64,000 nucleotides of DNA from Lentzea sp. NBRC 105346 (GTDB taxonomy: Bacteria > Actinomycetota > Actinomycetes > Mycobacteriales > Pseudonocardiaceae), in NCBI RefSeq assembly GCF_030269605.1, contig NZ_BSTQ01000003.1, positions 248,001 to 312,000 of the forward strand. Reading direction: 5' to 3'. Each line of letters begins with the position of its first letter. The stretch's first letter is position 1. The position numbers and the translations under genes are program-made. The notes below the pieces were generated by a model. It made no database searches, was not told the origin of the DNA, and saw nothing but the letters and a program-made list of their open reading frames with translations. Shown here in pieces: positions 1,876 to 63,416 of the stretch.

Positions 1876-2501
1876 CCGACGAGTCTCTTCAGCCGGTCGG
1901 GGTCGCGCAGCGGCCTGCCGTGTCCGAAGAGGACGAGCTTGGGCCGCAGTTCGGCGAGCCGCCGCATCGACTCGCGGTTGCGCTCGTGGTCCCAGGTCAG
2001 CAGCTTCGGGGGCGCGGCCGGGCGGAACACGTTGAAGAACACGTCACCGCAGATCAGCACGCCGTCGTGGTCACGCCACAGCGCGATGTGCCCCGGCGAG
2101 TGGCCGGGCACGTCCAGCACGGTGAACCCGGCGATCTCGTCGCCCTCGACCAGTCCACGCGCGACCGGGTGCGGCGGTGGCATCTTCATCTTCCCGAGCA
2201 ACGCGGGCAGGCGGCCGGGCGCGGGCACGGGCCGGGCGTGCTCGATCGCCTCGACGTCGCGCCGACCGGCCCAGAGCGGAACGTCGCGCGCCTCGCACAC
2301 GGCGTGGCTGGAACCGAAGTGGTCGGGGTGCGCGTGCGTGACGACGTGCGCGCTCAGCCTGCGCCCGTCGAGCTGGCGCATGATGCGCCGCCGCGCGGCG
2401 GGCGTGCCCGCGTCGACCAGGACGTCCTCCACCAGGTAGGCGTTGATCGTGTGGGGCGGCCTGCCGAGCAGCTGGTGGACCCCTGGGGCGAGCTGACGCA
2501 C
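1872..2501 (-). CDS. MBL-fold metallo-hydrolase
   Basis: A 209-residue protein of the metallo-beta-lactamase superfamily. The metal-binding signature THAHPDH lies near residues 55-61. A later PGHSPGHI segment near residue 132 supplies another metal-ligand His, and FGHGRPL near the C-terminus supplies the last. The length fits a small stand-alone MBL hydrolase (glyoxalase II or lactonase-like) without extra domains. The start is GTG at 2501. The gene is the first of a coupled pair with the STAND regulator, so its substrate may be linked to the signal that regulator senses; that is inference. The substrate cannot be assigned from sequence. Confidence 0.85.
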   Translation of the reverse strand: MRQLAPGVHQLLGRPPHTINAYLVEDVLVDAGTPAARRRIMRQLDGRRLSAHVVTHAHPDHFGSSHAVCEARDVPLWAGRRDVEAIEHARPVPAPGRLPALLGKMKMPPPHPVARGLVEGDEIAGFTVLDVPGHSPGHIALWRDHDGVLICGDVFFNVFRPAAPPKLLTWDHERNRESMRRLAELRPKLVLFGHGRPLRDPDRLKRLVG

Positions 2502-2576
2502 GCGCGTGATCGTATCGGTGACCGTTCTATCAGGCGATTAGCCGAGGATTAACCGTTCGAACGGACGATCGCGAGC

Positions 2577-3026
2577 ATGACTCGTCTTCGCAAAGCTGTT
2601 GCGTCGGCCGCTGTCCTCGTGGGGACCGCGGTCGTCTCGATCGTCCTGCCCGGCCACGCCAACGCCGCCGAGTACGGCTGCTCCGGCGCGCTGATCGACA
2701 CCTGGCCGGTGAAGTCTCCGTGGAACACGATCAGCCACATCCGGCTCTACTACAACTCCAGCAACGGCTGGAACTGCGCGGTCAACGTGAAGACCGCGTA
2801 CTACTCGCAGTTCAAGCACGATGCGTCGATCTCGATGTACAACGAGGACTTCCGCGAGGACGACAACAACCGACCCGGCTACAACAACGACTTCGACAGC
2901 GGCAAGTTCCAGTACTACGCGGGCCCCGTGAAGGTGTACGGCAAGGGCAAGTGCGTCGTGATCAACGCCGACACGTGGTACTACGACGAGCACGCCCACA
3001 AGAACACCGGCGCTGTGCACTGCTGA
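2577..3026 (+). CDS. Small secreted protein, Tyr/Asn-rich, function unknown
   Basis: 149 residues with a clear Sec signal peptide: MTRLRK, a hydrophobic core of about 17 residues, and cleavage near HANA-AEYG at residue 30. The mature part of about 119 residues is rich in Tyr, Asn and Asp and has four Cys (in YGCSG, WNCAV, GKCVV and the C-terminal VHC), which could form two disulfides. I do not recognise a catalytic motif. It broadly resembles secreted small proteins of actinomycetes such as spore-associated proteins, but I cannot assign it to that family with confidence. It is a single gene with its own upstream region and a short gap to the next secreted-protein gene. Confidence 0.75.
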   Translation: MTRLRKAVASAAVLVGTAVVSIVLPGHANAAEYGCSGALIDTWPVKSPWNTISHIRLYYNSSNGWNCAVNVKTAYYSQFKHDASISMYNEDFREDDNNRPGYNNDFDSGKFQYYAGPVKVYGKGKCVVINADTWYYDEHAHKNTGAVHC

Positions 3027-37187: not shown

Positions 37188-38390
37188 ATGAGCGAAGCCC
37201 TGATCTTCGACGCGGTCCGCACGCCGCGTGGCAAGGGGAAGCGCGGTTCGCTGCACAGCGTCAAGCCCGTGGCCCTGGCCGCGGGCGTGCTGCGCGCGCT
37301 GGCCGACCGCAACGACCTCGACACCTCGGCCGTCGACGACGTCGTGCTCGGCGTGGTCACGCCGATCGGCGAGCAAGGCGGTGACATCGCCCGCAGCGCG
37401 GTCCTCGTCGCCGGCTACGACGAACGGCCTGCGGGCGTGCAGCTCAACCGCTTCTGCGCCTCCGGCCTGGAGGCGGTGAACCTGGCGGCGGCGAAGGTCG
37501 CGTCGGGCTTCGAGGACCTCGTCATCGCCGGTGGCGTCGAGTCGATGTCGCGCGTGCCGATGGGGTCGGACGGCGGCGCCTGGGTCGCGGACCCCGCGAC
37601 CGGGTTCGACACGTCGTTCGTGCCGCAGGGCGTGAGCGCGGACCTCATCGCGACGCTGGAGGGCTACAGCCGCGAGGACGTGGACGCGTGGGCGGCCCGG
37701 TCGCACCAGCGCGCGTACGTCGCGCAGCAGAAGGGCTGGTTCGAGCGGTCGATCGTGCCGGTCGTCGACCAGAACGGCACGGTCGTGCTCAAGGAGGACG
37801 AGACGATCCGTCCCGAGTCCACTGTGGAATCGCTCGGCAAGCTCAAGCCGAGCTTCCAGTTCCACGGCGACCTCGGCTACGACGCGGTCGCGATCGACAA
37901 GTACCCGTCGGTCGAGCGCATCAGCCACGTCCACACGCCCGGCAACTCGTCGCAGATCGTCGACGGCGCCGCCGCGATGCTGATCGGTTCCGCCAGGGCC
38001 GGCGCGGACCTCGGCCTGACGCCACGCGCCCGCATCGTGTCCGTCGCGGTCACCGGCACCGAGCCGACGATCATGCTCACCGGCCCCGCCCCGGCCGCGC
38101 GCAAGGCGCTGGACCGGGCGGGTCTGTCCATTGAGGACATGGACCTGGTGGAGATCAACGAGGCGTTCTCGTCCGTGGTGCTGAAGTTCCTGCGCGACAT
38201 GGACCTGCCCGAGGAGAAGGTCAACGTCAACGGCGGCGCGATCGCGCTGGGCCACCCGCTGGGCGCGACCGGCTGCATGATCGTGGGCACGCTGCTCGAC
38301 GAGCTGGAGCGCCGGGACCTGCGCCGAGGTCTGGCCACGCTGTGCGTCGGCGGCGGCATGGGCATCGCGACGATCATCGAGAGGGTCTGA
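37188..38390 (+). CDS. fadA: Acetyl-CoA C-acyltransferase (thiolase)
   Basis: 400 residues from the ATG at 37188 (GGTGGGGAC upstream). Nucleophile Cys in [12 protein letters not shown] near residue 90; [15 protein letters not shown] near 345 with the catalytic His; and the second Cys in [10 protein letters not shown] at the end. It cleaves 3-oxoacyl-CoA in the last step of beta-oxidation. It is 5 bp before the fadB start, so they form an operon. The 180-bp upstream gap to the acyl-CoA dehydrogenase gene should hold divergent promoters; no TetR/FadR-type palindrome stood out. Confidence 0.94.
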
Positions 38391-38395
38391 CACAC

Positions 38396-40441
38396 ATGCC
38401 GTTCCACTACGAAAAGGACAGCGACGGCATCGTCACCCTGACGATGGACATGTCCGGCACGGCCAACGTGATGAACGCCGAGTACGCGTCGCTCATGGGC
38501 GACGCCGTGACCCGGCTGGAGCAGGACGAGCTGACCGGCGTGATCATCACGTCCGCCAAGAAGACGTTCTTCGCCGGCGGCGACCTCAACATGCTCATCC
38601 AGATCACGCCGGAGAACGCGGCCGAGGCGCTGGTGGGTGTCGAGGAGATCAAGGCGCAGCTACGGCGCCTGGAGAAGCTCGGCAAGCCGGTCGTGGCCGC
38701 GATCAACGGCGCCGCGCTCGGCGGTGGCCTGGAGATCACGCTGGCGTGCCATCACCGCGTCGTGCTGGACGACGACTCGATCAAGCTCGGCCTGCCCGAG
38801 GCCACGCTGGGCCTGCTGCCGGGCAGCGGCGGCGTGACGCGCATGGTGCGGCTGCTGGGCGTGCAGGCGGCGTTGCCGTTGCTGATGGAGGGCAAGCAAC
38901 TCCGGCCGCAGCGCGCGTTGCAGGCCGGGATCGTGCACGCGCTGGCGTCGTCGCGTGAGGACCTGTTCGAGCAGGCGCGCGCGTGGATTCGCGCCAACCC
39001 CGAGGCGAAGCAGCCGTGGGACGTGCCCGGCTTCACCCTGCCGGACCTGAAGTTCGCCGACCCGAACAGCTACGGCCTGCTGGCCGCCGCGCCCGCCGTG
39101 CTGCGCAAGAAGACCCACGGCACCTTGCCGGCACCGGAGAAGATCCTCGCCGCGGCCATCGAGGGCGCGTTCGTCGACATCGACACGGCGTTGAAGATCG
39201 AGGGCCGCTACTTCCTCGAGCTGGCCTCGGGCCAGGTCGCGAAGAACATGATCAACGCGTTCTGGTTCCAGCTCAACGAGATCAACGCGCGCGGCTCCGC
39301 GGGCCGCAACAAGGTCTCGAAGCTCGGCGTGCTCGGCGCGGGCATGATGGGCGCGGGCATCGCCGAGGTGAGCGCCAAGGCGGGCATCCCGGTCGTGCTC
39401 AAGGACGTCACGCTGGAGGCGGCTTCTCGCGGGGCACAGGACCTGCCCGGCATCACGCCGACCGACTCCGACGCGGATCTGGCCGGCTGCGACCTGGTCA
39501 TCGAGGCGGTGTTCGAGAACCGCGAGCTGAAGAACAAGGTGCTGCCCGCGGCCGAGTCCGCCGCGCTGCCGTCCGCGGTGATCGCGTCGAACACCTCGAC
39601 GTTGCCGATCACCGGGCTGGCCTCCTCGGTCAGCACGCCGGAGAAGTTCATCGGCCTGCACTTCTTCTCGCCGGTGCAGAAGATGCGCCTGGTGGAGGTG
39701 ATCCGCGGCGAGAAGACGTCCGAGGAGACGCTGGAACGCGCGCTGGACTACGTGCGCCAGATCGGCAAGACCCCGATCGTCGTCAACGACAGCCGCGGTT
39801 TCTACACCTCGCGCACGTTCGGCACGTACCCGATCGAGGCGATCACGATGCTCGCCGAGGGCGTGCACCCGGCGTTGATCGAGAACGTGGCCCGCAAGGC
39901 CGGCATGGCGGTCGGCCCGCTGGCGGTGTCCGACGAGGTGACGCTCACACTGCAGCTGAAGATCCGCGACCAGACGCTGGCCGACGACCCGGCCGCGGCG
40001 GGCCTGCGCGAGCACCCCGCGTTCGGCGTGCTGCAACAGCTCGTGGATCTCGGCCGCACCGGCAAGTCGGGCGGTGCGGGGTTCTACGAATACCCTTCGG
40101 AGGGAAAGAAGTTCCTCTGGCCCGAGCTGGTCACGCGGTACACCAAGCCCGACGCGGGAGTGTCCGAACAGGACGTTCGCGACCGGCTGCTGTACATCCA
40201 GTCGCTGGAGACGATCCGGTGCCTGGACGAGAACGTGCTGACGTCGGTCGCCGACGCGAACATCGGCAGCATCTTCGGCTTCGGCTTCGCGCCGTGGACG
40301 GGCGGCACGCTGCAGTTCGTCAACTCGACCGGGCTCGCCGCGTTCGTCGATCGGGCCGACTACCTGGCCGACACCTACGGCGAACGCTTCCGCCCGCCGG
40401 CCTCGTTGCGCGACCGCGCCACCCGCAACCAGCCCTACTAA
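38396..40441 (+). CDS. fadB: 3-hydroxyacyl-CoA dehydrogenase/enoyl-CoA hydratase (FadB/FadJ)
   Basis: 681 residues from the ATG at 38396. The N-terminal crotonase (about 1-200) has NGAALGGGLEI near residue 103 and GLPEATLGLLPGSGG near 130 with both catalytic Glu positions. The dehydrogenase part has LGVLGAGMMGAGIAEV near residue 311 and LHFFSPVQKM near 421. Between the first Rossmann strand and ITPTDSDADLAGCD the segment is unusually short: about 25 residues that I expect in FadB-type enzymes are missing. This also fits the total length being below the usual 700-720. The enzyme pairs with FadA in a trifunctional-type complex. Confidence 0.93.
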   Translation: MPFHYEKDSDGIVTLTMDMSGTANVMNAEYASLMGDAVTRLEQDELTGVIITSAKKTFFAGGDLNMLIQITPENAAEALVGVEEIKAQLRRLEKLGKPVVAAINGAALGGGLEITLACHHRVVLDDDSIKLGLPEATLGLLPGSGGVTRMVRLLGVQAALPLLMEGKQLRPQRALQAGIVHALASSREDLFEQARAWIRANPEAKQPWDVPGFTLPDLKFADPNSYGLLAAAPAVLRKKTHGTLPAPEKILAAAIEGAFVDIDTALKIEGRYFLELASGQVAKNMINAFWFQLNEINARGSAGRNKVSKLGVLGAGMMGAGIAEVSAKAGIPVVLKDVTLEAASRGAQDLPGITPTDSDADLAGCDLVIEAVFENRELKNKVLPAAESAALPSAVIASNTSTLPITGLASSVSTPEKFIGLHFFSPVQKMRLVEVIRGEKTSEETLERALDYVRQIGKTPIVVNDSRGFYTSRTFGTYPIEAITMLAEGVHPALIENVARKAGMAVGPLAVSDEVTLTLQLKIRDQTLADDPAAAGLREHPAFGVLQQLVDLGRTGKSGGAGFYEYPSEGKKFLWPELVTRYTKPDAGVSEQDVRDRLLYIQSLETIRCLDENVLTSVADANIGSIFGFGFAPWTGGTLQFVNSTGLAAFVDRADYLADTYGERFRPPASLRDRATRNQPY

Positions 40442-40442
40442 C

Positions 40443-40538
40443 CGCGAGTCTTACCGTCCGGCCCCCTGTGTCTTACCGTCCGGAACCCGTCCGGGTGCGG
40501 GAACGTAAGACACGGGGGGCCGGAGCGTAAGACACGCG
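40443..40538. repeat. Palindromic repeat B, copy 2
   Basis: The arms contain GTCTTACCGTCCGGCCCCC and its near complement ending GTAAGACACGCG, with GTAAGAC/GTCTTAC units at four places and an inner CCGG..CCGG. The GTAAGAC plus GGGGCCGGAG order matches copy 1 at 24961. It lies just past the fadB stop and before the NTPase gene. Confidence 0.6.
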
Positions 40539-40574
40539 CGGCTGGATGGACGCACGTCGTGGTACCAATTCGGG

Positions 40575-42554
40575 ATGAGCAAGCGCGGATGGCTGCTGGC
40601 CGGACTGATCATCGTCGCCGGTGCCACGTCCGCTGTCATGGCCGCTCTCGGCGTCAAGCAGTGGTGGGTGCTCGCCATCGGCGCGGTCGTCGGTGCGGTC
40701 GCGGTGTTCTTCAGCGAGTACCCGAAGGAGTTCCTCAAGCGGGGAGCGCAGCGACGCGAGGAGACCGGCTTCGCCCTGACCAGGGGCGCGGTGTCCGGCA
40801 AGGTCCTTGACCTGGACGACCCGATCCGGCTCGGCGTGCACAAGGCGGCGAAGGGCGTGCCGCCCTACATCCGGCGCGACGTCTACGACGAGGTCGTCTC
40901 CCACCTGCGGCCGGGCGGCTTCGTCGTGCTGGTCGGCGACTCGACGGCGGGTAAGTCCCGCACCGCGTACGAGGCGGTCCGGGCGACTCTGCCCAAGCAC
41001 CACCTGATGGCGCCGGAACGCCGGGACCTCGTGGACGCGGCCGTCGACGACCTGGCGCGCAGGCCGAAGTGCGTCCTGTGGCTGGACGACCTGGAGAAGT
41101 TCGTCGGCACCGGAGGTCTCACCGTCGCAGGCGTCGACCGCCTCCGCCACGGCACGATCATCGCGACGCTGCGCCGTGAGGAGCTGAACCAGTTGACCGG
41201 CGGCGACGACCACCGGCTGAGCGACGAGGCCCGCCGGGTACTGGACCAGGCCCATCAGGTGCAGCTGGACCGCCACTTCACCCCGGCCGAGCTGGAGCGG
41301 GCCGAGGAGTACCGGTCCGACGCCCAGATCGGGGACGCGCTGCGCAACTCCGGCGAGTACGGCCTGGCCGAGTACCTCGCGGCCGGTCCCACGCTGCTCG
41401 CCCACTGGACCAACGCCAAGGCACCGAACGCGCATCCGCGCGGCGCGGCACTCGTGACCGCTGCCATCGACTGCCGCCGCGCGGGCTTCCACGCCCCGCT
41501 GCCGAAAGCCCTGCTGGACGAGGTGCACGATCACTACCTCGGCAACCGCGTCCGCCCCGAGTCACTCAACGAGGCGTGGAAGTGGGCGACAGAACCGCCG
41601 CGCGGCACCACGACCGCCTTGCTCGAACAGGGCGGCGACCACGTCCAGGTTTTCGACTACCTGGTCGACCACGTGCAGAGCATGCACGCGCCCGGTGACC
41701 ACGTGCCCAGCGACATCGTCCTCGCCGCGATTCGACACGCCGATGCGTCAACCGCATACGCGATTGGACAAACGGCGTATGACAACGGCAGGTACGCGCT
41801 CGCGAAATCAGCTTTCGAACACGCCTTACGCCTCGACGAGGCCGAGCAAGGCCCCGAACACCTCGATACCGTCCGCAGCCGCCACTACCTCGCCATGGTG
41901 TTGCGCGCCCAGGGCGACCTCACCACCGCCGCCACGGAATACCGCGCCGTACTCAACATCTACACCCGCACCCTCGGACCCGAACACCCCGACACCCTCA
42001 GTAGCCGCAACAACCTCGCCAACGTGCTGTACGACCAGGGCGACCTCACTGCCGCCGCGACCGAATACCGCGCCGTACTCAACATCCGCACCCGCACCCT
42101 CGGACCCGAACACCCCCACACCCTCACCAGCCGCAACAACCTCGCCCTCGTGCTGCGCGCCCAGGGCGACCTCACTGCCGCCGCCACCGAACACCGCGCC
42201 GTACACGACATCCGCACCCGCACCCTCGGACCCGAACACCCCCACACCCTCACCAGCCGCAACAACCTCGCCAACGTGCTGTACGACCAGGGCGACCTCA
42301 CTGCCGCCGCCACCGAACACCGCGCCGTACACGACATCCGCACCCGCACCCTCGGACCCGAACACCCCCACACCCTCCGCAGCCGCGACAACCTCGCCCT
42401 CGTGCTGCGCGCCCAGGGCGACCTCACCACCGCCGCCACCGAACACCGCGCCGTACTCAACATCCGCACCCGCACCCTCGGACCCGAACACCCCCACACC
42501 CTCACCAGCCGCAACAACCTGGCCGAGGTCGAGAAGCGGCTTCGGGGTCAGTGA
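40575..42554 (+). CDS. Membrane-anchored P-loop NTPase with near-identical TPR repeats (STAND-like)
   Basis: 659 residues. Two TM segments lie at about 7-25 and 30-46. A P-loop GDSTAGKSRTA lies at 121-131 and a Walker B-like CVLWLDDLEK at 166-175. A helical middle region spans about 230-420. The C-terminal part is a run of 42-residue TPR units starting LGPEHPxTLxSRNNLA at residues 467, 509, 551, 593 and 635, with a degenerate unit near 425. The units are almost identical even at DNA level. The architecture (membrane segment, NTPase, sensor repeats) resembles STAND proteins of signalling or anti-phage defence, but I know no characterised match. It is a single gene whose 3' end overlaps a convergent araC-type gene by 7 bp. 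Confidence 0.82.
   Translation: MSKRGWLLAGLIIVAGATSAVMAALGVKQWWVLAIGAVVGAVAVFFSEYPKEFLKRGAQRREETGFALTRGAVSGKVLDLDDPIRLGVHKAAKGVPPYIRRDVYDEVVSHLRPGGFVVLVGDSTAGKSRTAYEAVRATLPKHHLMAPERRDLVDAAVDDLARRPKCVLWLDDLEKFVGTGGLTVAGVDRLRHGTIIATLRREELNQLTGGDDHRLSDEARRVLDQAHQVQLDRHFTPAELERAEEYRSDAQIGDALRNSGEYGLAEYLAAGPTLLAHWTNAKAPNAHPRGAALVTAAIDCRRAGFHAPLPKALLDEVHDHYLGNRVRPESLNEAWKWATEPPRGTTTALLEQGGDHVQVFDYLVDHVQSMHAPGDHVPSDIVLAAIRHADASTAYAIGQTAYDNGRYALAKSAFEHALRLDEAEQGPEHLDTVRSRHYLAMVLRAQGDLTTAATEYRAVLNIYTRTLGPEHPDTLSSRNNLANVLYDQGDLTAAATEYRAVLNIRTRTLGPEHPHTLTSRNNLALVLRAQGDLTAAATEHRAVHDIRTRTLGPEHPHTLTSRNNLANVLYDQGDLTAAATEHRAVHDIRTRTLGPEHPHTLRSRDNLALVLRAQGDLTTAATEHRAVLNIRTRTLGPEHPHTLTSRNNLAEVEKRLRGQ
41847..42533 (+). 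repeat. 126-bp tandem repeats encoding TPR units
   Basis: CTCGGACCCGAACACCCC recurs at 41973, 42099, 42225, 42351 and 42477, exactly 126 bp apart, with most bases between also identical. A diverged unit starts near 41847. Variation is concentrated in a few codons (Tyr/His, Asn/His-Asp, Leu-Arg-Ala/Leu-Tyr-Asp). This is recent expansion or gene conversion. Confidence 0.9.
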
Positions 42555-43510
42555 CCGCCGCGGTAGGCGCCGGGTGAGGAGCCCGTCCAGCGTTTGAACG
42601 CACGGTGGAAGGCGCTCGCCTCCGAGAACCCCAGCCGCAGCGCCAGTTCCTCCACCGACTCACCGCCGCGCACCAAAGACGCCACCGCCTGGTCGCGCAA
42701 CAGCTGTTCGCGCACCTCGCGGAACGACGTCCCCTCGGCGGCCAGCCTGCGCCGCAACGTCGGCGCGGACACCCCGAGCCGCTGTGCGACGGCTTCCAGG
42801 CCCGACTCCCCCGCCCCGAGCAGCCGGCGCACGTGCGCGGACGTGTCGGCGCCGTGGTCGCGGCGCGACAACAGCTCCGCGGGAGAGTTGCGCAGGAACC
42901 GGCGCAACGCGGCCTCGTCCTGCACCACGGGCATCCGCAGGAACTTCGGGTCGAAGAACATCGCGGTGACGGGCGCGGAGAACTCGAGCGGGCAGCCGAA
43001 GATCAGGTGGTACTCGGCGGCGTGCGGCGGTTCGGGGTAGTCGAAGGACGCGCGCCGCAACGGGATCCGGCGCCCGACGAGCCACGACGAGAAGCGGTGC
43101 CACAGCACGAGCAGCGACTCGGTCAGGAAGTGGTCCGGGTCGTCAACGAGCGCCATGTCGAGCGAGAAACGCCCGTCCACCAACGACATGGCGGGCGCGG
43201 TGTCGAACAGGCCGTAGAACGCGAGGCCGCGTCGCAACGCCGAGCCGAGGTCCGGGCAGTGCACGGCGAGCAGGCACATCGTCGGGAACGTGCCCCGTTT
43301 GGACGGACGCGGGCCGAAGCCCATGAACTCGTCGTCGAGCTGCTCCCACAACGCCTGGATGAGGCGGGTGAACTGCTCGGGCGTCACGCGGGCGCGGTCG
43401 TCGTCGAGCAACGAGGGGCTGATGCCCGCGGCGGCCAGGACCGGTTCCGGCGCCGGGCATTCGCGCAGCGCGGCGCGCACATAGTGGATCGCCACGGTCC
43501 TGGTGTGCAC
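42548..43510 (-). CDS. AraC-family transcriptional regulator
   Basis: 320 residues from the GTG at 43510; GTG at 43495 is an alternative and neither has a strong RBS. The N-terminal half is the arabinose-binding-like domain seen in OruR/ArgR-type AraC regulators (GISPSLLDDDRARVTPEQF near residue 28). The C-terminal double HTH is at about 225-318, with VAQRLGVSAPTLRRRLAAEG and LALRLGFSEASAFHRAFKRW. It probably activates a nearby or unlinked catabolic gene. No obvious partner is adjacent. Its 3' end overlaps the convergent NTPase gene. Confidence 0.9.
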   Translation of the reverse strand: MHTRTVAIHYVRAALRECPAPEPVLAAAGISPSLLDDDRARVTPEQFTRLIQALWEQLDDEFMGFGPRPSKRGTFPTMCLLAVHCPDLGSALRRGLAFYGLFDTAPAMSLVDGRFSLDMALVDDPDHFLTESLLVLWHRFSSWLVGRRIPLRRASFDYPEPPHAAEYHLIFGCPLEFSAPVTAMFFDPKFLRMPVVQDEAALRRFLRNSPAELLSRRDHGADTSAHVRRLLGAGESGLEAVAQRLGVSAPTLRRRLAAEGTSFREVREQLLRDQAVASLVRGGESVEELALRLGFSEASAFHRAFKRWTGSSPGAYRGGH

Positions 43511-45263: not shown

Positions 45264-46430
45264 TCAAGCTGCTTGCAGCGCTTGAAGGTCGGCCATGAGG
45301 CGGGGGTAGATTTCGCGGGCGAGGTAGCGCTTGAGGCATCTGATGAGGTGTTTCTTGGTCATTTTGGTGCCGGGGCGGAGCCGTTCGCGCATGTAGGTGC
45401 GGGTGGGTTCGTGGGTGGCCAGCCGGGTGATGATGATCCGGTAGAGGGCGGCGTTGGCGTGGCGGTCGCCGGCGCGGGAGAGCCGGTGGTGTTCGTGTTT
45501 GCCGCTGCTGGCGTCCTGGGGTGCGACGCCGGTGAGGGTGGCGAAGGCGGTCTCGCTGTGCAGCCGGTCGGGGTGATCGCCTGCGGTGACCAGGAGTTGC
45601 CCGGTGGTGTGGGTGCCCAGGCCGTGCAGGGCCATGGTGCGGGGTGCGATGCGGTGCAGCAGGGCGTCCAGTGTGGAGTCCAGGTCGTGGATGCGGCTGG
45701 TGTGGAAGGTGATCTGCCCGGCGAGCTCGCTTAGTGCGGCGCGGACCGCTGTGCCGGAGTCGAGCAGGGTCTGGGCGAGGGCGGCGGCGGAGACGGTGCG
45801 GGTTTTGCTGCCGGTGCGGGGTGTGGGCAGGGGGTCGGCGGCGAGGGTGGCGCAGCGCCGGAGCAGGGCGGTGGTGGACAGGCCGTGCAGGGCCTCGCGG
45901 AGTTCGGCGGGTGTGGTGATGAGCAGGGCTTTGAGTGCGTTGAGCGCCGCGGTGCGGGCGGTGATGTGCTGGTCGCGGGCGATGCGCAGCACCCGCACCG
46001 ATTCCACCGGGCCGGTGCGTGGTTTCGGGGTGGCGGTGGCCTCGCCGGACTGGGCTGCCGCGGCGGCGTTGATCGCGTCCTGCGGGTCGGACTTGCCGCG
46101 TAGCCGGCGTTTCTGCCGGTTCGGCCGGTTGACCTCGACCACCCGCACTCCCCGTGCGGTGAGGAAGGTGGTCAGGCCGGCGCCGTAGCAGCCGGTGCCC
46201 TCCACACCGGCCAGGGTGGTCGGGCCGAAGTCGGTCAGCCAGGCCCACAGCTGGGCGAACCCGGCGCGGGTGGCGGGGAATTTCAGTGTGCCCAGGGTGC
46301 GGCCGAGGGCGTCTTTGGCGGCGGCGACGTGAAACTCGAGGTGAGTGTCGATCCCGGCGGTGATCTCGCCGACCGGGTCGATCGGGCAGGCCGGGGTGGT
46401 GCGGGTGGACTTCGTGCGGGTCTTTGCCAT
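45264..46430 (-). CDS. IS110 family transposase (DEDD-Ser recombinase)
   Basis: 388 residues from the ATG at 46430, which matches the family start; the frame continues upstream into the leader. The RuvC-like N-terminal DEDD domain shows AGIDTHLEFHVA near residue 26, LAGVEGTGCYG near 72 and GKSDPQDA near 110. The C-terminal Tnp20 domain has LTGVAPQDASSGKHEHHRLSR near residue 297, with the catalytic Ser, and ALYRIIITRLA. It appears intact. IS110 transposases are guided by a bridge RNA from the element's own non-coding end. Confidence 0.93.
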   Translation of the reverse strand: MAKTRTKSTRTTPACPIDPVGEITAGIDTHLEFHVAAAKDALGRTLGTLKFPATRAGFAQLWAWLTDFGPTTLAGVEGTGCYGAGLTTFLTARGVRVVEVNRPNRQKRRLRGKSDPQDAINAAAAAQSGEATATPKPRTGPVESVRVLRIARDQHITARTAALNALKALLITTPAELREALHGLSTTALLRRCATLAADPLPTPRTGSKTRTVSAAALAQTLLDSGTAVRAALSELAGQITFHTSRIHDLDSTLDALLHRIAPRTMALHGLGTHTTGQLLVTAGDHPDRLHSETAFATLTGVAPQDASSGKHEHHRLSRAGDRHANAALYRIIITRLATHEPTRTYMRERLRPGTKMTKKHLIRCLKRYLAREIYPRLMADLQALQAA

Positions 46431-46685
46431 GCTGGTGAGGCCATCCTGTTCGCGGCTACGGGCGGGTGGCATGCACCGGGCCCGGCGGGCGGACAGGACA
46501 GTGATGGGGCGCCTGCGGCAACAGGCTCCTATGAGGTCACGGTCGCCGGGGCTGGTGCGCACCGGTGGTCCTCACCAGCCCGGACGTCAGATCTCACGAA
46601 AGGCACGAAACCGGTCATACGTCGAGACAGACCAGACCGGCGAGGACCACCAGCAGCATCCTCACGGACGCAACCCCATCCTCAC
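46431..46685 (-). ncRNA. Bridge-RNA candidate in the IS110 leader
   Basis: 255 nt of leader upstream of the transposase, where IS110-group elements encode bridge RNA. Predicted stems: GCCTG/CAGGC (46511-46526); CCGGGGCTGGTG/CACCAGCCCGG with a 15-nt loop (46546-46583); CCGGTC/GACCGG with an 18-nt loop (46611-46640). A long-range perfect 10-bp pairing GGTGGTCCTC/GAGGACCACC joins 46564-46573 to 46642-46651 and competes with the second stem. Large loops of this kind fit target- and donor-binding loops. Confidence 0.45.
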
Positions 46686-60572: not shown

Positions 60573-63416
60573 TCAGCCCACCGCCGTGCTGGACACCGAC
60601 CGCGCACGGGCCAGCCGACCCCTTACCTCGTCCGCCTCGGGCGCGTTGAGCTCGCTGAACAACGCCAGCGCGCGCTGCCAGTGCGCCACCGCGCCGGCCG
60701 CGCCGAGCCGGTCGAACACCATCGCGAGCCGGTCGTGCGCCAGGGCCTGGTGGTAGGGCGAGACGGCGTCGCACGCGACGGCGAGCGCGGTGCGGGCGCT
60801 GCTCAGCGCCTCGTCGTACTCGCCGGTCTCCAGCAGCGCCGTGGCGAGGTCGACGTGGCACGCCGACTCACCGCATTGCTCCCCCACCTCGTGGTACATC
60901 CGCAGCGCGACGCGGAACCACGGCTTGGCGTCGGCGTACCGCGACGTCGCGAGGTACAGCAGGCCGAGGTGGTGGTGCGCGTTCGCCTCGGCCCACTTCG
61001 ACCCGGCGGCGCGGCTGACCTCCATCGCCTCGCGGTAGTGCGACTCGGCCTCCTCGCTGCGGCCGAGGTCCTGCAGCGTGTTCGCGACCGTCGTGAGCGC
61101 GCGGGCCTGCTGGTGAACGTCCCCTTTGGACCGGGCGACCTCCAGCGCTTCCCGGTGTGAGGAAAGGGCTTCCTCGAACCGTTCGAACTGCAGCAGCGCC
61201 ACGCCGAGGTTGAACAACATGACGAACCGCGCGTCCGAGTCACCGAGTCTCGTCGCGGCCTGCAACGCGGACTCCGTGCTGCGCAACCAGGTCTCGCGTT
61301 CCGTGCGCAGCCAGAAGAACCGGCTCAGCGTGTACGGCAGTTGCCAGGCATGCACGAGCCAGTCCTGCGCGTACGCCAGCTCGGCGGCCGCGATCAGGTT
61401 GCCGCGCTCGGCGTCGAACCAGGCCATCGCGTCCGCCGCGCCGCTCAGCGTCGGCACGTGCCGCGGGCGGTGCTTCGGTTCGATGTGGACACTGCCGCGG
61501 TTGAGCGGCAGCAGTTCGTCGGCGATGTCGGCGCAGTGCAGGTAGTAGTCGAGCATCCGGCCGGTCGCCTCGTGCCGTTCGTGCTCGGTCAGCTCGTCGG
61601 CGAGCGTCTTGGTGTAGACGCGGATCAGGTCGTGCGCGACGTAGCGGCCCGGTTCGGCGACGGTCAGCAGGTTCGCGGTCGTCAACGCGTCGAGGGAGCG
61701 TTGTGCCTCGACGAGCCCGACCTCGCCCATCGCGGCGACCACGTGCGGCGTGAGTGCGGGACCGGGGTGCAGCCCGACGACCGCGAGCAACCGGGCCGGG
61801 GTCGGCGACAGCGCGCGCCGGGACGCGTCCAATGCCGCGCGAACCGTGCCCTCACCGTCCTCCAGGCCCAGCGCGGCGAGCCGGCCATGCTCGTCCTGCA
61901 GCTCCGCGACCAGCTCGGCCACCCGCAGCTTCGGCGACACGGCGAGCCGCGCGGCCGCGATGCGCAACGCGAGCGGCAGGCCGTCGCACAGCTCCGCCAG
62001 CGAGTGCAGCGCGGGCATCTCCTGGTCCGACAGCCGCCCGGCGATGCGCCCGAGCACCTCGACCGCGGCGTCGCGATGCAGCATGTCCAGCTCGATGAGC
62101 CGCGCCTCGACCTGCGCGACGAGCCCGACGAGCCGCCGTCGTGACGTGACGATCACGCAGCTCGGCGCGCCGGGCAGCAACGGCAACAGGTCGGCGCTGC
62201 CCCGGACGTTGTCCAGCATCACGAGCATCCGCCGGTCGGCGAGCATCGTGCGCAGCAACGCCGACCGGTCGTCGATGCTCACCGGCATCTCCGCCGCGGG
62301 CACGCCGAGGCCGCGCAGAAACCCGTTGAGCACCTCGCCGATCTCCAGCGGCTCACGGTTCGGGTCGTACCCGTGCAGGTCGGCGTAGAGCTGCCCGTCG
62401 GGGAACTCCTCGCGCACGCGATGCGCCCAGTGCGAGGCGAGCGCGGTCTTGCCGACGCCCGCGGGCCCGGTGACCACGAGGACCAGTCCGGGATGACTGC
62501 GCAGCAGCGCGTTCATGTGCTCCAGCTCGTCGTCGCGCCCGATCAACGTGCCCGGCGCGCGCGGCAGCTGAGCCGGAATCGTCACCGGCGCCTGCTGCGG
62601 TTCCGCGGCCGGCGCGATCTTCAACGCGGGCCGCTCGGGCTCCGGGCTGTCCCCGGCGAGCACGGCCTGGTGCACACGCCGCAACTCCGGCCCCGGCTCC
62701 ACGCCGAGCTCGTCGATCAACACGCGCCGCGCCTCGCGGTACGCCGCCAATGCCTCGGCCTGCCGCCCCGCCTGGCAGAGGGCCCGCATGAGCAGCCCGT
62801 GCCCGCGTTCCCTCAGTGGATGCTCGGCGACGACCCCACTGAGCTGGCTGATCAGCTCGGCTCCCTGCCCGATCGCGAGCCCCAACTCGGCCCGCTCCTC
62901 GAGCACGGCGAGCCGCCGCTCGATCAACCGCCCACGCTCGACGTCCGCGAACAGCCCGTTCAACCCGCCCAGCGGCTCGGCCCGCCACAACGCCAGCGCC
63001 TCGTCGAGCTCGACCGCCGCCTGCTGCAGGTCTCCGGCGGCCCTCAGCCGGTGCGCCACGGCCACCTGCTGCTCGAACACGTCGAGGTCGAGCGCCCCCG
63101 GTTCGACCCGCAACAGGTACCCGTCGCCGACGCTGGTGAGGGTCTCGGCCGGAGCACGTCTTGCCCGGCTGGGCTCCAGTACGCGTCTCAATCCGGCGAC
63201 GTAGGTCTGGACCAGGTTCACGGCGGAGCTGGGCTCGTTGTCACCCCAGACCGCCTCGATGATCTGGCCACGACTAACCGGGGTGTTGCGCGCCAGCAGC
63301 AGCACCGCCAGTACCGCGCGCTGCTTCGCCGCCCCCAGATCAACCTCGTGACCAGCACGAACGACCCGGAGAAGGCCCAGAACCTCGAACCGCAGGGGTT
63401 CCTCGCCGTGCGTCAC
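60573..63416 (-). CDS. SARP/AfsR-type regulator with BTAD, NB-ARC and TPR domains
   Basis: 947 residues. The N-terminal OmpR-like HTH (about 8-95) has GQIIEAVWGDNEPSSAVNLV. A BTAD domain (about 100-245) has ELGVEPGPELRRVHQAVL at its end. The NB-ARC ATPase has VTGPAGVGKTALASHW near residue 320 and a Walker B-like MLVMLDNV near 400. TPR repeats fill about 700-930. This is the AfsR layout. Such proteins activate antibiotic or developmental genes by binding heptameric repeats near promoters. No biosynthetic cluster is in the window, so the targets are elsewhere or beyond the right edge. Confidence 0.93.
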   Translation of the reverse strand: MTHGEEPLRFEVLGLLRVVRAGHEVDLGAAKQRAVLAVLLLARNTPVSRGQIIEAVWGDNEPSSAVNLVQTYVAGLRRVLEPSRARRAPAETLTSVGDGYLLRVEPGALDLDVFEQQVAVAHRLRAAGDLQQAAVELDEALALWRAEPLGGLNGLFADVERGRLIERRLAVLEERAELGLAIGQGAELISQLSGVVAEHPLRERGHGLLMRALCQAGRQAEALAAYREARRVLIDELGVEPGPELRRVHQAVLAGDSPEPERPALKIAPAAEPQQAPVTIPAQLPRAPGTLIGRDDELEHMNALLRSHPGLVLVVTGPAGVGKTALASHWAHRVREEFPDGQLYADLHGYDPNREPLEIGEVLNGFLRGLGVPAAEMPVSIDDRSALLRTMLADRRMLVMLDNVRGSADLLPLLPGAPSCVIVTSRRRLVGLVAQVEARLIELDMLHRDAAVEVLGRIAGRLSDQEMPALHSLAELCDGLPLALRIAAARLAVSPKLRVAELVAELQDEHGRLAALGLEDGEGTVRAALDASRRALSPTPARLLAVVGLHPGPALTPHVVAAMGEVGLVEAQRSLDALTTANLLTVAEPGRYVAHDLIRVYTKTLADELTEHERHEATGRMLDYYLHCADIADELLPLNRGSVHIEPKHRPRHVPTLSGAADAMAWFDAERGNLIAAAELAYAQDWLVHAWQLPYTLSRFFWLRTERETWLRSTESALQAATRLGDSDARFVMLFNLGVALLQFERFEEALSSHREALEVARSKGDVHQQARALTTVANTLQDLGRSEEAESHYREAMEVSRAAGSKWAEANAHHHLGLLYLATSRYADAKPWFRVALRMYHEVGEQCGESACHVDLATALLETGEYDEALSSARTALAVACDAVSPYHQALAHDRLAMVFDRLGAAGAVAHWQRALALFSELNAPEADEVRGRLARARSVSSTAVG

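Follow-up and report, generated by a model that had tools for sequence, protein, structure and literature searches.

A membrane-anchored STAND-like NTPase of Lentzea with a near-identical TPR array, a candidate single-gene receptor

The stretch of DNA analysed here (hereafter the window) comprises 64,000 nucleotides of Lentzea sp. NBRC 105346 (assembly GCF_030269605.1, contig NZ_BSTQ01000003.1, positions 248,001 to 312,000 of the forward strand), and we have studied in it a single gene whose product combines two N-terminal transmembrane (TM) segments, a P-loop NTPase core and a C-terminal array of tetratricopeptide repeats (TPRs). Its features and those of its surroundings are collected in Table 1. 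The initial annotation, made from the DNA letters, had read from this gene two TM segments, Walker A and Walker B motifs and at least five 42-residue units spaced by 126 bp, and all three readings hold: the two hydrophobic segments are helices in the model, both Walker motifs are readable with key residues invariant across the 57 sequences of alignment A3 (in which motif invariance was judged throughout), and five full units plus a partial one stand in exact register.

Table 1. Features of the gene and its flanks (window coordinates)
Feature	Position	Strand	Remarks
Left flank gene	38342..40441	+	adjoins right flank in congeners
Long near-perfect palindrome	40442..40541	.	left edge of insertion; copy of dispersed genomic repeat
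Whole gene, 659 aa, ATG start	40575..42554	+	2TM - linker - P-loop NTPase - helical/winged-helix-like part - TPR array
TM helix 1, residues 7-25	40593..40649	+	mean hydropathy 2.26; model helix 3-25
TM helix 2, residues 29-47	40659..40715	+	hydropathy 1.85; model: long helix 30-71
P-loop NTPase core, residues 95-232	40857..41270	+	models, Foldseek, hhalign to NB-ARC
Walker A GDSTAGKSR, residues 121-129	40935..40961	+	G121, A125, G126, K127, R129 invariant (57 sequences)
Walker B CVLWLDDLE, residues 166-174	41070..41096	+	W169, L170, E174 invariant; D172 >=90%
ATLR, residues 197-200, candidate TTR motif of STAND/NB-ARC	41163..41174	+	R200 invariant; ends strand 194-200
Helical and winged-helix-like region, residues 237-370, FDYLVD plus helix at end	41283..41684	+	model
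First TPR, residues 391-425, differs from array units	41745..41849	+	model helices 391-403, 407-425
Five near-identical 126-bp / 42-residue TPR units	41850..42479	+	in-register repeat and tandem array analysis
Partial sixth unit and C-terminal helix	42480..42551	+	unit comparison, model
Right flank gene	42548..43510	-	7-bp overlap with gene 3' end; present in 24/24 genus genomes

In the AlphaFold model, built from 47 sequences (pLDDT 89.7), two helices at the N-terminus are followed by an NTPase of alpha/beta type, by a helical region that includes two short strands (349-351 and 356-359), by the TPRs and by a C-terminal helix, the TPR part being composed of one extra repeat (391-425) followed by five 42-residue TPRs. 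Basic residues precede TM helix 1 and follow TM helix 2 in the sequence, which suggests that both protein termini are cytoplasmic. The region between NTPase and TPRs, in which D361, Y362 and D365 are invariant, may be likened to that around the HD motif in NB-ARC proteins. A scan for promoters and terminators returned 0 promoter-like sites and 2 terminator-like sites (1.2 expected), and an Rfam scan gave no match.

The array dominates the tandem repeats of the window, scoring 1057 at 41853-42524 (period 126, 5.3 copies, 90% match), with the other four arrays scoring 51-67. Full units start at 41850, 41976, 42102, 42228 and 42354, a partial one of 24 aa begins at 42480, and the spacing is thus exactly 126 bp, five times. 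This is a 42-residue helix pair repeating in register, as is characteristic of the 42PR class of TPRs. DNA identity among the full units is 0.82-0.96, and a query of three units against the own genome retrieved the gene itself and only one 36-base stretch elsewhere. The source genome is a draft in 67 contigs, and short reads misbuild such arrays in a fungal NLR (PMC12222747); however, between full units 4-18% of bases differ and like arrays are present in other genomes and metagenomes, so that we regard an assembly artefact, or an incorrect copy number, as highly improbable. The exact number of copies in the window array is best taken as uncertain.

Comparison of relatives indicates how the array changes. 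Within one clade (N-terminal identity 89-99% for the pairs shown), eight proteins that share a similar tail at the C-terminus, mostly from metagenomes and with strains undefined, have lengths after the P-loop of 395, 397, 397, 439, 481, 481, 481 and 607 residues; adding 1, 2 and 5 units of 42 residues to 397 gives 439, 481 and 607, and therefore close relatives differ by whole units. A further protein, P0065 (472 residues after the P-loop), has another tail and breaks this series. The repeat number, whose comparison between close strains had been proposed as a check, is thus not constant in close relatives. More generally, a motif search found at least two in-register units in 37 of 81 coding sequences. 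Six of these arrays reach a maximum unit identity of at least 0.96 and are here called young, namely those of the window, Kutzneria (L038), Nonomuraea (L035), Sphaerisporangium (L027 and L029) and Amycolatopsis (L041); L064 (0.95, mean 0.71) and L028, which has two units, were not included. In DNA, the best unit pairs of the young arrays are 96-98% identical.

The units of an array mostly resemble each other. The nearest match lies in the own array for 5/5 units of the window, 7/7 of L038, 8/8 of L035, 5/5 of L041, 7/11 of L027 and 5/6 of L029, the older arrays ranging from 0/4 to 5/5. In Sphaerisporangium perillae, which carries L027 and L029 as paralogues, 4/11 and 1/6 units find their best or an equal match in another gene, and these sequence matches may hint at exchange between genes. 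Inside the six young arrays, 32/78, 20/153, 183/351, 170/276, 12/78 and 11/55 informative site pairs present all four gametes, and among the window units every one of the four combinations of two multi-base blocks is present; units therefore most likely recombine.

We have then located the changes along the unit. Variation in the young arrays falls at unit positions 6, 9, 12, 16, 19 and 20 in helix A and at 31, 34 and 36-38 towards the end of helix B, and 16 of the 42 positions are invariant inside every one of the six. The register to the TPR consensus (unit position minus 7) was set by matching N-L-A in the unit to the consensus rather than from the model, the anchor being what we take to be the consensus N-L-G. 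Unit positions 9, 12, 16, 19 and 20 then correspond to TPR positions 2, 5, 9, 12 and 13, which line the concave face and are among the most variable in TPRs generally (PMC1261162), a set to which unit positions 6 and 31-38 do not belong. These five, plus position 13 (a ligand contact in HOP), form our groove set, picked after inspection of the window units, so that the five other young arrays constitute the independent test. The mean difference at groove versus other positions is 0.65 versus 0.12 in the window (p=0.00004, post hoc) and 0.39 versus 0.12 in the five other arrays (p=0.0036); pairwise counts draw on the same units repeatedly and are not independent. The ratio of non-synonymous to synonymous change (pN/pS) at groove positions is 2.39 in the window, versus 0.87 elsewhere, and 1.38 in L029; L038 and L041 have no synonymous groove changes.

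The same figures bear on the possibility that the repeats are a mere by-product of slippage and unequal exchange, drifting under relaxed selection and without a role in recognition. Whole-unit pN/pS is near 1 in several young arrays (0.49-1.17 in the six) and repeats within proteins accelerate generally (PMC5120217), both of which would fit such drift; in contrast, changes are unevenly placed between groove and remainder, in the window as in the five other arrays, 16 positions show no variation inside the young arrays, and of the 31 arrays not counted as young, 24 have a pN/pS of 0.31-0.69. We thus find drift alone quite improbable. The sensor reading of the initial annotation is supported in that positions predicted to bind collect a surplus of changes, and the repeats appear, judging from their sequences, to behave as a diversifying sensor.

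A search with residues 1-390 gave 477 proteins at E<=1e-3 (8000 candidates scored); those with organism names among the best 120 listed are presumably all actinobacterial. The family is large, patchy, unnamed and actinobacterial: the N-terminal part is present in 8 of 24 genus genomes, and in the family sample the NTPase core is carried by at least 58 of 249 genomes, which represent at least 18 of 46 genera, these being lower bounds because only 9 candidates were scored per genome (G011, G017 and G018, positive in the genus search, are missing from the positives of the family sample). At least one hydrophobic segment precedes the P-loop in 71, and at least two in 49, of 80 public loci, which are the best 80 of 181 and skewed to the 2TM type; in the genus and family set (69 loci, L138-L206, with 70 core-bearing frames), detected for the most part via the core alone, the figures are 35 and 25 frames. 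The arrangement of 2TM, NTPase and TPRs is thus common in Actinobacteria, and its description as a new architecture is not supported.

In other relatives the same core carries other N-termini: TIR_2 in a congener (L024, genome G011), where TIR, the NTPase core and repeats are split over two frames, DUF4062 in L172, DUF4365 in L159 and Trypsin_2 in L195, L197 and L206, with a weak HNH_2 below cut-off in L188 (E 0.0012). The two-frame TIR gene of G011 (L024/L021/L203) reflects a frameshift or a sequencing error. By eye, L161, L162, L183, L186 and L196 have short N-termini with G-x-V-V-Q-like motifs on this core, which we take to resemble RHIM/BASS amyloid signalling motifs. The latter are treated in PMC7889193. 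On the C-terminal side, the TPRs give way to DUF5753 in P0003 and P0006, and FHA lies downstream of them in P0040 and P0112. The module scans covered ten N-terminal parts and ten proteins out of many, and no frequencies can be derived from them; N-termini were taken from the first possible start codon and are possibly too long, some are cut or doubtful (e.g. L147-L149, L153, L157, L163, L170, L174, L193), and L009, L010, L012, L013, L014, L017-L020 and L023 were left out of this reading. Since same-core relatives hold TIR, trypsin-like, DUF4062, DUF4365 or BTAD modules in its place, the 2TM hairpin is likely the output part, and this module swapping is the strongest reason for regarding the hairpin as output and the TPRs as sensor. 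The earlier remark that no effector is visible is to be revised accordingly.

In respect to class membership, the modelling that had been suggested as a check yields NTPase, helical, winged-helix-like and TPR parts. A separate N-terminal model was built because the fold search with the whole model filled up with TPR chains; Foldseek matches of the former include SAMD9 (considered as the closest fold but not adopted, its TM-score of 0.39 of the query being low), a STAND-TPR protein, Avs5 and also AAA+ Clp proteins. By hhalign the match to the NB-ARC profile is only a remote one, in which both Walker motifs and the arginine preceding the P-loop find counterparts in the window protein, and a weak profile similarity to nSTAND3 lies near the Walker A of the latter; of the 57 aligned members, 30 match nSTAND3 at E<=0.1, the lowest value being 2.4e-5. 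The N-terminal part gave three Pfam rows at E<=0.1, neither NB-ARC nor NACHT among them. As a separate candidate, the TPR protein of the FxSxx-COOH system (NF040586) was rejected, at 168.3 bits against a cut-off of 300 and with the match confined to TPR residues 392-646. Exchangeable N-terminal effectors and C-terminal sensors, a STAND trait, are found in the relatives, and the traits of fungal-type NLRs are seen as near-identical repeats, copy-number change (among relatives rather than strains of a species) and variation at binding positions. The STAND-like build first proposed is supported by models, fold matches and the NB-ARC alignment, and the protein is probably built as a STAND/NLR receptor with membrane output.

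The gene stands alone. The neighbourhoods of the 81 loci, taken as far as four genes on either side, comprise 599 proteins in which no family recurs, the largest cluster covering 4 loci, as judged with our own gene caller and a length criterion of 45%, which may miss genes or split families; this agrees with the stand-alone gene without partner of the initial annotation, and membership in an operon or multi-gene system is unsupported. The flanks, which we take to be a 3-hydroxyacyl-CoA dehydrogenase/enoyl-CoA hydratase-like gene on the left and an AraC-type regulator on the right, lie together in all 23 congeners with the window gene absent between them, the site being occupied in 1 of 24 genomes. 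The gap between the last aligned flank residues is 12-35 bp in 20 congeners and ~209, 218 and 560 bp in three, and in nine printed junctions the two flank stop codons overlap or abut. The three wide-gap congeners hold other sequence at the same point (L109 ~1359-1496, L122 ~1317-1496, L127 ~2452-3005), in two cases with a short open reading frame (ORF; 45 and 59 aa) having a signal-peptide-like start; the site may therefore accept inserts. The closest NTPase core of the family sample (56% identity) belongs to another genus, the own genus reaching 46% at best, and the closest among the proteins listed is P0002 of Lentzea tibetensis (61%). Horizontal transfer is the simplest reading of the gene's gain, and it is probably a recent arrival at the site.

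At the left edge of the insert, the palindrome, which carries CGTAAGACACG twice, folds as RNA at -76 kcal/mol (z-score -7.97, 40440-40545). Its genome holds at least 50 matches to such sequence, several as adjacent pairs on opposite strands, and it is therefore a REP-like or mobile palindromic repeat. An ORF at 45264-46562 (-), 2.7 kb from the gene, looks by eye like what we take to be an IS110-type transposase.

Taken together, we favour, with a probability of about 0.55, a single-gene STAND-type (NLR-like) receptor for variable non-self, with an output at the membrane and a TPR groove that diversifies. The hairpin would anchor the protein with both ends inside, and the 42-residue TPR array would act as the sensor, its target sitting in the concave groove. 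Binding would free the NTPase/winged-helix switch, molecules would oligomerise with ATP, and the clustered hairpins would then act on the membrane, by permeabilisation or growth arrest, in a possible defence or cell-death role. The sensor would diversify through gain, loss and recombination of near-identical units, changes being kept mainly at groove positions, as expected for a receptor of variable non-self such as phage or other strains.

A number of results weigh against this proposal, the lack of a recurring neighbour among them. In the array, positions 38, 6 and 37, outside the tested set, vary about like groove positions, and 31, 34 and 36 are also variable; groove pN/pS is below 1 in L035 (0.67) and L027 (0.74), and the pooled value is only 1.10 (bootstrap 0.80-4.14), versus 0.63 (0.45-0.78). 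Repeat arrays in general diverge fast, most so in the Streptomyces set among the organisms studied in PMC5120217, and array divergence is therefore no proof of a conflict role. On the side of the fold, AAA+ Clp chaperones score equal to STAND proteins, all with low TM-scores. The profile search against STAND families gave a divided outcome, the remote NB-ARC alignment being set against an nSTAND3 (PF20720) score of 15.6-16.8 bits, under the curated cut-off of 27.2; within its own genome the gene is neither among the nSTAND3 matches listed nor among the 68 listed NB-ARC (PF00931) places (E<=1e-3; 150 of 284 candidates scored). One of these 68 lies in the window, inside a 962-aa open frame (61941-62513, -). 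In PADLOC-DB 2.0.0 the full-length protein matched PDC-S05 alone, weakly (E 0.0024) and within the TPRs, and the N-terminal part had no match. PADLOC mad8 matches appear in 9 of 57 aligned members (best 4.2e-5); this lead was set aside, as ten homologues, picked without knowing which nine had matched, gave none at E<=0.01.

Also on this side, BTAD is N-terminal on the same core in L167, and helix-turn-helix (HTH)-like N-termini are seen by eye in several relatives, both suggesting regulators in the family. These agree with a distinct scenario, in which the gene encodes a STAND regulator or signal transducer tethered to the membrane; like Rap/NprR and MalT/AfsR-type proteins, it would sense an endogenous ligand, peptide or protein, and relay the signal to an unlinked partner, with the hairpin as a mere anchor and no conflict role. 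The fold of the TPR part resembles Rap, NprR and MalT domain III, and the window protein has no toxic domain; however, the patchy distribution in the genus and the single occupied site, the repeat numbers that shift among close relatives, and the TIR, trypsin-like and nuclease-like modules on the core of other relatives speak against such a role. We thus consider regulation of this kind rather unlikely.

Returning to the non-self receptor, its nearest bacterial likeness is found in the antiviral Avs/bNACHT STANDs, which have the same tripartite effector-NTPase-sensor plan; PMC10907252 names TPR as a sensor and describes phage defence by bacterial STANDs that carry it. Avs5 is itself among the fold matches, whereas the window protein differs in that its output is a 2TM hairpin, without convincing PADLOC match. 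As to the unit, 42PR proteins such as kinesin light chain and Podospora 4y6c, the latter with near-identical copies according to its title, share the 42-residue length at 28-31% identity in structural alignments (PMC5642895); these chains differ in having no membrane NTPase. Searches of the open literature, several of them on adjacent topics and with subscription papers and preprints outside their scope, showed no description of the family or of such evolution in bacterial NLRs.

The closest parallel in sensor evolution is with fungal NLRs having highly conserved repeats, such as the Podospora NB-ARC/TPR protein Pa_2_10340 and the NACHT/WD het genes, described in PMC4986451 and PMC12222747. 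Common to both is an NTPase between an N-terminal output part and C-terminal repeats, together with near-identical TPR units, repeat-number change and selected positions that lie on the predicted surface of interaction; in the former source the fungal TPRs were modelled on kinesin light chain 2 and the selected positions mapped, and the latter relates repeat NLRs of fungi to self/non-self recognition. The fungal proteins differ in being eukaryotic, with NB-ARC or NACHT instead of the NTPase core of the window protein, and the cited TPR example has a sesB-like N-terminal part where the latter has a 2TM hairpin. Tentatively, then, the family could be a bacterial counterpart of the fungal incompatibility and immune NLRs, that is, one-gene membrane-acting receptors of filamentous Actinobacteria whose TPR groove is remade by recombination, for recognition of phage or kin (hyphal self/non-self). 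The results point to a widespread family of bacterial NLR-like proteins whose sensor evolution is readable from the repeats, with repeat variation predicting ligand-binding sites and phage or strain recognition being readily testable, and suggest that bacteria and fungi may share one way of receptor renewal, the recombination of near-identical repeat units beside an NTPase switch.
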